From positions 1 to 64,000 of the forward strand of contig NZ_JAFLWW010000009.1 in the NCBI RefSeq assembly GCF_018555685.1: a stretch of 64,000 bases of DNA, written 5' to 3'. This document shows, in pieces, positions 3,250 to 59,654 of this stretch (its first letter is position 1; the number at the start of each line of letters is the position of its first letter). The translations under genes and the position numbers were made by a program. The notes beneath the pieces are model-generated. The model was not told the DNA's origin, did not search any database, and was given only the letters and a program-made list of their open reading frames with translations. The DNA is from Aminobacter anthyllidis. GTDB lineage: Bacteria > Pseudomonadota > Alphaproteobacteria > Rhizobiales > Rhizobiaceae.

Positions 3250-3862
3250 GTCAGCTGATCGTCAGGCCGGAGGCATCGGCACTGATTTCGTCGCCATGTT
3301 GCTTGCAACTCCCCTTGCCCTGAAAGCTTCCGCCCACGTCCGTTCCTTCGTTTTGTTTTGATACCGTCGCGGCCCCAGCCGGTCGGCCCGAAGAACGTCA
3401 TTCCACTATATTGGCCCGCCCAACTGTCAGCAAGCGGAGCCTCTTGGAAGGCGAGTCTAGATGCCGAAGATGAATGCTGCATTGCACCGTCAGACAATGC
3501 CCCAAGTCGAAACCATTTTTTGCTTAGATGGCGTTATTTCAGGACATTTTGGCAACGACCGGCTATTCAAGCAATATGTTCGTATCTTGCGACGCACATT
3601 GCTCACTTATCGGCAGAACGTCGAAGATATAATCTAAGGCATTTGCGCTTGATTGACGTCACCCATTCTGCCTACCCATTAATCCATTGGACATAAAACT
3701 GTCGCATTGAAATCTTTTTGTGCACGGCATGCATGGTTCTTGGACATCTACTGGCAGGAATATTTCAGGCGTCAAAAAAACGTGTGTTGCAGCGCAGCAT
3801 ACCAGCCGTATCCTGACACGGGGCGATTCTGGGGCGATTTATCGACCAATTGGAGTTGCAGC
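3250..3862. promoter_or_regulatory. Divergent exoX/exoY control region, 0.6 kb
   Basis: No credible gene. The 3' two thirds (about 3510-3850) are markedly more A/T-rich than the rest of the window, with runs such as CATTTTTTGC and ATCTTTTTGTG, as expected for a promoter region bound by nucleoid-type regulators. In rhizobia the exoY upstream region is a known target of MucR-type regulators; whether that applies here is inference. A TTGACG hexamer near 3654 could be a -35 element, but its -10 is poor. Confidence 0.5.
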
Positions 3863-4537
3863 ATGAGGGATCTAGCCAAGTCGGGCAGCTTGGAGTTTCC
3901 ACACTTGGCCGCCGATCTTCCTCCGCTCGGTGGCGTGGCCAAGCGCGGATTCGACATCGTCGGTGCAGGTCTCGGGATTATCGCGCTGAGCCCGCTGTTC
4001 CTGCTCATCGCCCTTCTGGTGAAGGTCTCCGATGGCGGTTCGGTGTTCTACGGCCATCGTCGCATCGGCCGTGGCGGCCGTATCTTCCAGTGCCTGAAGT
4101 TCCGCACGATGGTTCCGGACGGCGATGCGGCTCTCGCCGCACACTTTCGCGACGATCCGGAAGCCAGGGCCGAATGGGAAGCGACACGCAAGCTCAAGGA
4201 TGACCCGCGTGTCACCCGTGTCGGCTCCGTGCTGCGCAAGCTCAGCCTCGACGAGCTGCCGCAGATCGTCAACATTCTGTTGGGCGACATGAGCATCGTC
4301 GGCCCGCGTCCGGTGGTGCGCGACGAGCTCGAATATTACGGCAAGGCTGTCGTCTTCTACCTCAAGTCGCGGCCCGGCCTCACCGGGCTTTGGCAGGTCA
4401 GCGGACGGAACGACGTGTCCTACGACAGCCGTGTGGCGTTCGACCGGCACTATGTCGAGAACTGGTCGCTGGTCGAGGACATCCGCATCATCCTGAAGAC
4501 GGTTCCGGCCGTCTGCATGTCGCGCGGCAGCTACTGA
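3863..4537 (+). CDS. exoY: Undecaprenyl-phosphate galactose phosphotransferase ExoY
   Basis: A 224-residue initiating phosphoglycosyltransferase of the bacterial sugar transferase family. It transfers galactose-1-phosphate from UDP-galactose to undecaprenyl phosphate, the first step of succinoglycan assembly, at the inner membrane. Visible features are one N-terminal membrane segment (about 30-54), the KFRTM motif (79-83) and the C-terminal block RKLSLDELPQ...MSIVGPRP, ending in the ExoY-typical SRGSY. I chose the ATG at 3863, with TGGAG at 3851-3855, because the product then has the usual ExoY length of about 226; the frame is open back to 3707, but the added residues are unlike the family. 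First gene of exoY-exoF-exoQ. Confidence 0.93.
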   Translation: MRDLAKSGSLEFPHLAADLPPLGGVAKRGFDIVGAGLGIIALSPLFLLIALLVKVSDGGSVFYGHRRIGRGGRIFQCLKFRTMVPDGDAALAAHFRDDPEARAEWEATRKLKDDPRVTRVGSVLRKLSLDELPQIVNILLGDMSIVGPRPVVRDELEYYGKAVVFYLKSRPGLTGLWQVSGRNDVSYDSRVAFDRHYVENWSLVEDIRIILKTVPAVCMSRGSY

Positions 4538-56218: not shown

Positions 56219-56767
56219 TTACTCGGCTGCAGTCTCAGCGGCTGCTTCAGCTGCCTTGGCGGCCTCGGCTGCTGCCTTCTTCTCGGCGGCTTCCTGGGCG
56301 GCCTTCTCGGCGGCCAGCGCCTGGGCTGCGGCAACCTTCTCGGCTTCGATACGGGCCTTCTCGGCGACCAGCGCAGCGCGCTCGGCGTCGTTCAGCTTGC
56401 GGGCGCGCACGCCGGTGTTCTCGACGATACGAGCCGACTTACCGCGACGATCGCGCAGGTAGTACAGCTTGGCGCGACGCACCTTGCCGCGACGGACGAT
56501 CTCGACGCCCTCGATCATCGGCGAGTAGACCGGGAACACGCGTTCCACGCCTTCGCCATAGGAGATCTTGCGGACGGTGAAGTTTTCCTGGAAGCCCGAG
56601 CCGGCGCGGGCGATCACGACGCCTTCATAGGCCTGGACGCGGGTACGCGTGCCTTCGGTGACGCGCACCTGGACACGCACGGTGTCACCGGGCTGGAATT
56701 CAGGCAGGGTGCGCTTGGCTTCGATCTTGGCGGCCTGTTCGGCCTCGAGCTGGCGGATGATATCCAT
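56219..56767 (-). CDS. rplS: 50S ribosomal protein L19 with a long acidic/Ala-rich tail
   Basis: A 182-residue L19 from the ATG at 56765-56767. The body (1-125) is standard: [40 protein letters not shown] and [20 protein letters not shown]. The remaining 55 or so residues are a Glu/Lys/Ala helix, compared with about 115-130 in most bacteria; similar tails occur in Rhizobiales. L19 is at the subunit interface. It is separated from trmD-rimM, its usual partners, by the convergent TauE gene. Confidence 0.95.
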
Positions 56768-57126
56768 CTCAAAAATCCACTTCTTGTTCTTCCGACAGCC
56801 AGAGCGCCCAACGCTCGCCTTGCAGTTCAAATGACCGCTCGGTTATGCCTTCTTCCCTCGCGGGTCTTCTGGCAGGGGCGACTACACCGTCACTGTTGAC
56901 GGGTCCGGTCGATTATTCTTCCGGTTCGGGCGGGCACATACCGCTATTTCGGCCATTTGTCACGCCTTTGCCGCTTCTTTTTTACGGCCACGGCTTGCTG
57001 GCAGGACTTTCCATGCTGCCGACAAGACCTTGGACCACATGGCGGGCAACGGCAAGCCATGGCTTGCATCGTTCGTTCGGGCTTCCTACAGACCAGACTA
57101 ACGTACCAGCAAGGCAGGCAGCCATC

Positions 57127-57882
57127 GTGTCCCTCCTCACAGCCGGCATTCTTTTTCTCGCAGGCTTCCTGTCGGGCGTCGTCAACGCCATTGCCGGGGG
57201 CGGCACCTTCCTGACCTTCGGCGCCATGACCATGCTCGGCGTCCCGCCGATCTCGGCCAACGCCACCTCCTCCATCGCCCAGTTCCCCGGCTACATCACC
57301 TCGACCTGGGCTTACATCGACGACATCAGGCTGATGTGGCGCGGCGCCATCGCCTTCGCCGTCATCTCGGCGTTGGGCGCGCTGGCCGGCGCGCTGATCC
57401 TGCTTTCGCTCGACAACGTCGCCTTCGGCGCCCTCGTCCCCTGGCTGCTGCTGGCTGCGACAGCCCTCTTCGCCGCCAGTCCCTGGCTGCGCCCCAAAAA
57501 GCTGGCCGAACGCGCCCCGGACGCGCCGGCCTCGCTCGCCGGGCGCCTCGTCCAGCTCTTCACCTCGATCTATGGCGGCTTCTTCGGCGCCGGCATGGGC
57601 GTGATGATGCTGGCCACCCTCGGCCTCACCGAAGGCGGCGACTACCACCGCCTCAACGCGCTGAAGAACCTGCTGTCGATCGTCATCGCAGCCGTCGCCA
57701 TCGTCATCTTCGCTTCCGGCGGCGTCGTCGCCTGGACCCATGCCGCGATCATGGTGCCGGGCGTAGCCCTCGGCGGTTATGCCGGCGTCTGGACCGCGCG
57801 CCGCGGGCCGCAAGCCATCGTCCGCGCGCTGGTCGTCGCGGTTGGGCTGTTTTTGGCGTTTTACTATTTCACCAAAAGTTGA
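57127..57882 (+). CDS. TauE/SafE family sulfite exporter-like protein
   Basis: A 251-residue protein with about eight membrane helices. FLSGVVNAIAGGGTFLTFG and the second repeat YGGFFGAGMGVMMLATLGLT are the two family motifs. It exports sulfite or related anions by family analogy; substrate unproven. The start is a GTG at 57127; the open frame reaches back to 56845 without family character. Inserted between rplS and trmD and convergent with trmD, 9 bases apart. Confidence 0.88.
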   Translation: MSLLTAGILFLAGFLSGVVNAIAGGGTFLTFGAMTMLGVPPISANATSSIAQFPGYITSTWAYIDDIRLMWRGAIAFAVISALGALAGALILLSLDNVAFGALVPWLLLAATALFAASPWLRPKKLAERAPDAPASLAGRLVQLFTSIYGGFFGAGMGVMMLATLGLTEGGDYHRLNALKNLLSIVIAAVAIVIFASGGVVAWTHAAIMVPGVALGGYAGVWTARRGPQAIVRALVVAVGLFLAFYYFTKS

Positions 57883-57884
57883 GC

Positions 57885-57898
57885 GGCATGATCATGCC
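57885..57898. other. 14-base perfect palindrome at the end of the TrmD-DUF4279 gene
   Basis: GGCATGATCATGCC covers the stop codon of the minus-strand fusion gene and lies 2 bases past the TauE stop; it may be part of a terminator but lacks a T tract. Confidence 0.5.
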
Positions 57899-58989
57899 AA
57901 CAGCTCGTCATGATAGATATCAAAGTCGATCGATATTCTTCGCTGTGACAGCAACTTCAGCGTTTCCTTGCCAAGGTTGAAACCTTGGTTGTAGCCGGAA
58001 AGCCAAAGGCCACATGAGACCTGCACAGTGCATCTATCGGCAAGTGCAAGCCAGTCGACATCAGGGAGCAGCTTATCAAAAAGAGCGACGATAGCATGCT
58101 CGATGTCTTCGGCTGCTTCTACCGAGATGTGCCAGTGACCGGTCTTACTTTTGGTCGGCGTGAGCTTTTCCGAAATCCTGACGTTCTCACCTTTCTTCCA
58201 AGCTACCTTAGGCTCACAACCGAGCAGTGATGTGATCTCCTTGGGATCAAAGTCGCCACGGACGGTCAAACTCACTCGTGAGTGAATGTGACCGACATAG
58301 GTGTCGGATATGCCGCGCATCAAATCCGGCCGCCGCGCCTGGGTCAGCTTCTCCGCTTCGGTCCGACGCCATTTGGCGATCTTGCCGTGGTTGCCCGAGG
58401 TCAGAACTTCGGGGATAGCGAGACCCTCGAACTCCTGCGGCCGCGTGTAGTGCGGGTGCTCCAGCAACCCGCCTTCAAAACTCTCTTCCTCGCCCGACAC
58501 CTCGTTGCCCATCACCCCGGGCAGAAGCCTGACGACGGCATCGAGCAACACCAGTGCTGCCGGCTCGCCGCCCGACAGGATGAAGTCGCCGACGGAAATC
58601 TCTTCCAGCTCGCGCGTATCGATGACGCGCTGGTCGACGCCTTCGAAACGCCCGCACAAGATCACCGCGCCCGGGCCTGCCGCCAGCTCGCGCACACGCT
58701 CCTGCGTCAGCGGCTTGCCGCGCGGGCTCATCAGGATGCGCGGGCGCGTATCGCCCTCGGGCGAAGCATTGTCGATCGCCTTCGCCAAAATGTCGGCGCG
58801 CATCACCATGCCGGCGCCGCCGCCTGCCGGCGTGTCATCGACGGTGCGGTGCTTGTCGGTGGCAAAGTCGCGAATCTGCACCGCCTCCAGCGCCCAGTCG
58901 CCGCGCTCCATCGCCCGTCCCGCCAGGGATACTCCCAGCGCGCCCGGAAACATCTCCGGATAGAGCGTGAGCACGGTTGCGCGGAACAT
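57892..58989 (-). CDS. trmD: tRNA (guanine-N1-)-methyltransferase fused to a DUF4279 domain
   Basis: A 365-residue protein. Residues 1-226 are TrmD, which methylates G37 of t[33 protein letters not shown], the knot region [33 protein letters not shown] and [12 protein letters not shown]...ARRPDLM. A normal TrmD ends soon after that motif. Here the frame runs on for about 135 residues: [35 protein letters not shown] and [16 protein letters not shown] match the DUF4279 pattern (tentative). The extension is visibly more A/T-rich than the TrmD part. The start overlaps the rimM stop by one base. Confidence 0.88.
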
Positions 58990-59585
58990 CAGCGATTGCC
59001 CCCGGCATCCTTCGGTCCGCGCGGACGCGTGTCGAATTCGCCGTCGGAGGGCGCGTCATCGTCGTCTTCGTTCTCGACAAGCCCGGCCGCGACCGTGTCG
59101 ATGCCGACGAAGCCACCTGGTACATCGACAACCGGCACCGCGGCCTGCGTGAACGGGATCAGCACGCCCTTGCGCCCCTGGTACTGGATTTCCAATATGT
59201 CGCCGCCGCCGAAATTCTGCACGGCAAACACCTTGCCGACCGGCTCGCCATTTTCGTCACGCACCGCAAGGCCGACGAGATCGGCGTGATAGAACTCGCC
59301 CTCGTCGCCATCGTCGGGCAGCGCCGAGCGGTCGACGAACAGCTCGGTCCCCGTCAGCGCCTCGGCCGCGTTGCGGTCGGCAACACCCTTGAAGCGCACC
59401 ACAACAACCTCGTTGGCCGGCCGGATCGCGGCGATCTCGAAGGCGCGCCCGTCCTTGGCGTAAAGCGGGCCGTAGTCGGCCAGCGCCAGCGGGTCGCCGG
59501 TAAAGGTCTTGACGCGCAATTCGCCCTTGATGCCGTGGGCGGCGCCGATCACGGCCATCTGGATAGGATTTTGGGGTTTGGCCAT
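58989..59585 (-). CDS. rimM: 16S rRNA processing protein RimM
   Basis: A 198-residue RimM, which assists 30S maturation by binding S19. N-terminal [20 protein letters not shown] and the PRC-barrel part [18 protein letters not shown] and [14 protein letters not shown] are typical. The acidic C-terminal tail ([13 protein letters not shown]) is a rhizobial feature. The ATG at 59583-59585 was chosen; one at 59597 is possible. Followed by trmD. Confidence 0.94.
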
Positions 59586-59654
59586 CGCCTGCTTCACTGC
59601 TTGCTAACTTCACTCGTTCAACACTGCCATATTCCAATCGGACACCCGCTGCCA

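Follow-up and report, generated by a model that had tools for sequence, protein, structure and literature searches.

A DUF4279 domain fused in frame to the tRNA methyltransferase TrmD in one Aminobacter strain, and related genes that recur behind trmD

How did the TrmD of one Aminobacter strain come to end in a DUF4279 domain, and what might that domain do there? Within the window, by which we mean the whole stretch of 64,000 nucleotides analysed (Aminobacter anthyllidis, contig NZ_JAFLWW010000009.1, positions 1 to 64,000), a minus-strand open reading frame at 57892-58989 with an ATG start encodes a complete TrmD followed by a complete DUF4279 domain in a single frame of 365 residues, as the original prediction had proposed. 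The TrmD part, native to Aminobacter, occupies residues 1-223 (58321..58989, minus strand), the junction with a probable flexible linker residues 224-234 (58288..58320, minus strand), and the DUF4279 domain residues 246-356 (57922..58254, minus strand); the stop codon of the fused gene lies at 57892..57894 (minus strand). Its conserved upstream neighbour is rimM (58989..59597, minus strand; Pfam RimM). On its 3' side lies a convergent membrane-protein ORF (56845..57882, plus strand), a conserved neighbour in many relatives that encodes a putative TSUP protein, and beyond it rplS for ribosomal protein L19, the next gene of the trmD operon (56219..56830, minus strand; Pfam Ribosomal_L19).

Both domains scored above their cut-offs, DUF4279 well above. 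In Pfam, tRNA_m1G_MT (PF01746) matched residues 24-221 at 177.5 bits, and the product exceeded two NCBIfam TrmD equivalogs (TIGR00088, 260.3 bits with a cut-off of 195; NF000648, 303.8 with a cut-off of 220). DUF4279 (PF14106) matched with 57 bits, its cut-off being 25, over profile positions 4-116 of 116, and the tail searched alone against Pfam reached 60.1 bits. The tail had no match in NCBIfam, PADLOC or PHROGs, the last two of which hold no DUF4279 model. Pfam found no PF09936 (Tm1570) domain in the product at E values up to 1. A 436-residue TrmD chain in the PDB, 8b1n, is presumably a TrmD-Tm1570 fusion. In the 6.7 Mb genome, the 365-residue frame is the only TrmD match.

The catalytic residues of TrmD in H. 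influenzae numbering are Arg154 and Asp169 (PMC5372735, excerpt), and the enzyme has an SG(H/N)H motif (PMC11187310, excerpt). Alignment to 4mcb showed that Arg154 and the motif are kept in the TrmD part (R154, S198-G199-N200-H201), with Glu169 (58483-58485) at the position of Asp169. Glu169 is invariant in all 26 TrmD rows of an alignment with relatives and is thus a lineage trait of rhizobial TrmD. The AlphaFold2 model of residues 225-365 was compact (mean pLDDT 86.4, pTM 0.81) with a disordered start (model residues 1-5, or 225-229 of the product; pLDDT below 50), and comparison of this model with solved structures gave no clear match.

We compared the fused gene with its relatives. In nine other Aminobacter genomes, TrmD is 91-96% identical to the TrmD part, matches it up to residues 224-233, and ends no more than about 12 residues past RRPDL. 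All nine lacked a match to the window's DUF4279 domain, and the fusion is present in one of ten Aminobacter genomes. In 80 named relatives, TrmD measures 222-240 residues from the start of the match, with a tail variable in length and sequence. Counting once the five contigs common to both sets, we found no C-terminal domain on TrmD in 84 distinct relatives; in these the protein stops at most about 30 residues from the RRPDL position. We also made a profile of 22 DUF4279 proteins, which found nothing in the 1.5 or 3 kb flanks of 99 trmD loci of such relatives, at least five contigs being counted twice. The possibility that the extension is an ordinary TrmD tail, raised alongside the original prediction, is ruled out by the 84 relatives. 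The same fusion was thus seen in none of the nine Aminobacter genomes and 80 named relatives, although a fusion of the same type occurs in a second genus.

The DNA around the junction shows how the two parts were joined. Homology with relatives ends at GATTTG (58321, codon L223) and returns where the TSUP-like ORF ends, near 57883; the sequence directly 3' of GATTTG, from 58320 (M224) to about 57884, is foreign. This acquired segment (57884..58320, minus strand; edges set by blastn breakpoints and accurate to about 10 bases) stands where relatives have the final codons of trmD and the spacer to the TSUP-like ORF. A boundary near 58310 had been predicted, which was approximately right but missed the exact edge. 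The interval measures 434-453 bp in the window versus 41-149 bp in seven of the nine Aminobacter relatives (104-107 bp in four of these). Loss of the trmD stop codon, the originally proposed route, and a single base error removing that stop, proposed as an artefact, are both ruled out by these breakpoints, which show a replacement by about 440 bp of other sequence: the native sequence, about 105 bp in four relatives, is gone, and the GATTTG before the junction is itself native.

In the remaining two Aminobacter relatives (L006, L009), further genes occupy the interval between trmD and the TSUP-like ORF, a slot that takes different small genes. One Aminobacter locus (L025:3803-4539) holds a HigB-type toxin with an HTH partner there, by Pfam, and another (L027:3698-4138) an HTH-like ORF that is similar by eye. 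A 10-nt inverted repeat (9/10; 57880-57889 and 58310-58319), one of 11 pairs listed, falls at both edges of the acquired segment; it may be due to chance or have been left by a small mobile element.

The tail is more A/T-rich than the TrmD part, as predicted (50.9% versus 67.1% GC), and horizontal acquisition had been argued from this difference. The segment is indeed foreign to the Aminobacter trmD, but its composition gives no date for the event, because all 13 DUF4279 relatives measured, among them overlapping copies that are under purifying selection, have a GC content of 0.52-0.58 where their surroundings have 0.58-0.68. Low GC marks the DUF4279 gene family, and we dropped it as proof of recent transfer. 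Elsewhere in the window, only 3271-3970 has GC as low as the tail (in 430-bp windows); its right part overlaps an ORF at 3707-4537 that is sugar transferase-like by eye.

The fusion is not a one-off event: a second genus also carries one, and nine further loci have a DUF4279 gene, intact, truncated or interrupted, directly 3' of trmD. A draw of 394 family genomes contained PF14106 in 19, and a draw of 146 from the genus of genome G398, overlapping the first, in 14; from its place in the trmD tree, that genus is probably Mesorhizobium. We collected 33 DUF4279 loci in the family, and at 11 of them trmD lies no more than 1.5 kb away; these comprise two fusions, seven overlapping pairs, one pair in frame behind a stop, and one split by an insertion sequence. 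The G398 fusion is one frame of 373 codons whose TrmD and DUF4279 parts are 82% and 33% identical, respectively, to those of the window. At the seven overlapping loci (L111, L125, L131, L151, L153, L154, L155), the genes lie in separate frames and share an 8-nt overlap, ATGSCTGA, that places the DUF4279 start over the trmD stop; the L131 DUF4279 is truncated. At L107, trmD and DUF4279 are in the same frame, separated by a TAG, after which nine bases precede a TTG start; at L110 (genome G273) the DUF4279 start is split by an insertion sequence that is flanked on each side by CTAG and whose transposase was recognized by eye.

Outside the family, none of 27 DUF4279 loci (three of them below the Pfam cut-off) was linked to trmD. 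When 385 genomes of the class were searched with a fused profile, only the window, among the matches listed, covered both domains in one frame; all six of the other matches running through stop codons that we retrieved proved to be rplS behind trmD. In a donor search that used the tail as query, no relative was confirmed in genome contigs, plasmids gave three distant matches and phage records none, and a plasmid search with an overlapping DUF4279 copy as query gave four matches.

We then built trees of both partners. In a tree of 41 DUF4279 proteins (excluding L117, L122, L130, L131, L139, L140, L142, L143, L148, L149 and L150 for being short, weak or odd), eight trmD-linked proteins group together with support of 85/76, which is not strong. 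A long branch leads to the window's DUF4279, whose place beside the linked set is not firm, and the place of L107's is no firmer; uniting all ten linked rows in one clade was not rejected (p 0.35). The fused DUF4279 of G398 is sister to five overlapping copies of its own genus (100/93), followed by L110 and the overlapping L111, a position that suggests derivation of the G398 fusion from an overlapping pair. Forcing the two fusions to be sisters was 7.1 log units worse (p 0.053), and the fusions in Aminobacter and G398 probably arose separately. In a quick tree of 93 trmD genes, from which L029, L110 and five duplicate contigs were left out, the window's trmD falls inside Aminobacter among nine rows that have no DUF4279 domain. 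The linked state needs seven changes on this tree, against an average of 9.7 in shuffles, of which 3 of 500 were as low, and well supported branches force at least four of them. Because the eight linked DUF4279s group together, if weakly, and their trmDs are scattered, we infer from these trees that the trmD slot gained or lost related DUF4279 genes several times.

Are these genes maintained? Among five intact overlapping copies of G398's genus, dN/dS in DUF4279 was 0.08-0.29 in all ten pairs, so that by this sequence measure the five are under purifying selection. The synonymous distance in the same pairs was in every case higher for DUF4279 (0.64-1.84) than for trmD (0.49-0.67), a pattern consistent with allele replacement, though part of the difference may come from stronger codon bias in trmD. 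The fused G398 copy gave a dN/dS of 0.17-0.27 in four of five pairs, with synonymous sites saturated in the fifth and nearly so in the others. All of these figures describe the overlapping and G398 copies, the window's fusion being known from one strain.

The settings of other DUF4279 genes offer clues to what the domain is. Free copies of the same subfamily lie behind lipA (L114, and L115 by eye) and behind a MiaB-type gene, and more distant ones behind pth and behind a kinase-receiver (sensor kinase) protein; at L152 the DUF4279 gene, given its likely start, overlaps the end of AcnX. The loci behind lipA, the MiaB-type gene and pth are L114, L115, L133 and L104. Other free copies had no clear upstream partner. 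The three annotated plasmid relatives lie, respectively, in an Imm53/Imm8 immunity array with a transposase, among metabolic genes and among transposases; the fourth plasmid record carries no annotation. Six viral contigs carry DUF4279 relatives, and the five tested (L160-L164) all have phage structural genes nearby, namely terminase, tape-measure, baseplate or tail-terminator genes.

A DUF4279 protein has been proposed as the immunity partner of an Rhs-Ntox33 effector of a Salmonella T6SS (PMC13304343, excerpt), and in a Campylobacter table the nearest genes given for one locus are those of a DUF4279 protein and a RelE family toxin (PMC4615327, excerpt). No toxin gene lies beside the fusion, whose neighbours are rimM, the TSUP-like ORF and rplS, and Ntox33 was matched in none of the 11 genomes with a trmD-linked DUF4279, in a search whose positive controls also matched nowhere. 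Judged by genomic context, DUF4279 is probably a small mobile binding protein, probably of the immunity type.

We lean towards the explanation that the tail of TrmD began as a small mobile gene, probably immunity-like, of a kind carried behind housekeeping genes. This explanation starts from what was observed directly: the fusion, the replacement, the single TrmD match, the recurrence in the slot, purifying selection on five copies, and the phage and plasmid settings. Against it, two of the three annotated plasmid relatives lie outside immunity arrays. A free-standing DUF4279 gene would have entered the slot behind trmD. Such genes, which often follow the 3' end of a housekeeping gene, would probably be read by run-on or coupled translation, the common form at trmD being the 8-nt overlap with its stop. 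In Aminobacter, and probably separately in the second genus, two frames would then have become one, and every TrmD chain, if expressed at full length, would carry DUF4279 on a short flexible linker behind a complete methyltransferase.

TrmD would meanwhile keep methylating tRNA G37. Since both domains are complete and the genome has only one TrmD match, the fused copy has to be functional in a cell that requires TrmD, and as the sole match its TrmD part presumably forms m1G37. R154 and SGNH are kept, and the domain was added past RRPDL, in a region of variable length among relatives, so the enzyme is presumably active; the SPOUT knots TrmL and RlmH tolerated artificial C-terminal fusion (PMC5372735, excerpt). 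DUF4279 would be carried along at TrmD's level of expression, gaining a constant supply and keeping its own binding job, likely as orphan immunity against toxins of competing bacteria. A bolder version, which we consider unlikely, holds that the 3' end of trmD in the rhizobial family is a docking slot for mobile anti-toxin genes that couple and finally fuse, so that the immunity domain could not be lost without damage to TrmD, and TrmD would either patrol as a toxin binder or itself be protected.

A serious rival to a passenger gene, albeit one we rate as somewhat unlikely, is that DUF4279 is a true functional partner that binds tRNA, the ribosome or TrmD, or guards TrmD, with overlap and fusion tying the two together as proposed for TrmD-Tm1570. 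Such a partnership would account for the presence of 11 of 33 family loci in one slot, for the overlap kept in seven of them, for two probably separate fusions, and for the free copies behind other translation genes (MiaB-type, pth). It sits less well with the free copies behind lipA, AcnX and the kinase, with the lack of any trmD neighbour at 27 loci outside the family, and with the lack of DUF4279 in most family genomes (19 of 394 have one); moreover, one linked copy is truncated and another is split by an insertion sequence.

These decayed copies (L110, L131) would also be expected if DUF4279 had merely landed behind trmD and persisted as a functionless, harmless tail, a tolerated accident that would suit a fusion confined to one in ten genomes of the genus and a TrmD tail that varies in length and sequence among relatives. 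We regard this as quite unlikely, because the domain is complete and modelled with good confidence, the overlapping relatives are under purifying selection, and the fused G398 copy shows low dN/dS in four of five pairs, subject to the saturation noted above. An assembly or sequencing artefact is very improbable: the fusion comes from one assembly of 30 contigs with an estimated contamination of 4.42%, but within one 222 kb contig the sequence is again homologous to Aminobacter at matching points to either side, and the same type of fusion occurs in a second genus.

What the locus adds is best seen beside known systems. The event behind TrmD-DUF4279 is of a known kind and the architecture is new; it is the second case, after TrmD-Tm1570, in which TrmD gains a C-terminal domain through such a series of states, and the two partners are unrelated. 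In some related bacteria a DUF4279-type gene lies right behind or overlaps trmD, perhaps so that it is always made, which suggests a route for cargo genes to secure expression by riding on an essential gene; and DUF4279, a family of unknown function, gains relatives in defined operons for testing its role. Compared with ordinary rhizobial TrmD, residues 1-223 are typical at 91-96% identity to other Aminobacter, and it is the extension far beyond the RRPDL position that sets the protein apart from 84 relatives. The DUF4279 protein of the Salmonella SPI-19 T6SS belongs to the same Pfam family and is listed without a transmembrane region or signal peptide (PMC13304343, excerpt); that protein is encoded beside its toxin gene, whereas here the domain is the tail of TrmD with no adjacent toxin gene. 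Polyimmunity loci collect immunity genes apart from toxins, some near recombinases (PMC3482391, excerpt), and one DUF4279 relative likewise lies among annotated immunity genes, but the window's is a single copy joined to a housekeeping enzyme and not to other immunity domains.

The closest parallel is TrmD-Tm1570. The original prediction knew of no such fusion, and in the accessible portions of the literature on DUF4279, TrmD C-terminal extension or gene fusion we found no TrmD-DUF4279 protein; TrmD with another C-terminal domain, however, has been described. There the partner gene is separate, adjacent, overlapping by 7 nt, or fused, and the PF01746-PF09936 fusion of Calditerrivibrio nitroreducens is an active tRNA methyltransferase (PMC11187310, excerpt). 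The two cases share a second domain at the C-terminus of TrmD and a series of separate, adjacent, overlapping and fused genes; they differ in that Tm1570 is a knotted methyltransferase, whereas DUF4279 has no clear structural match and its settings suggest immunity cargo.
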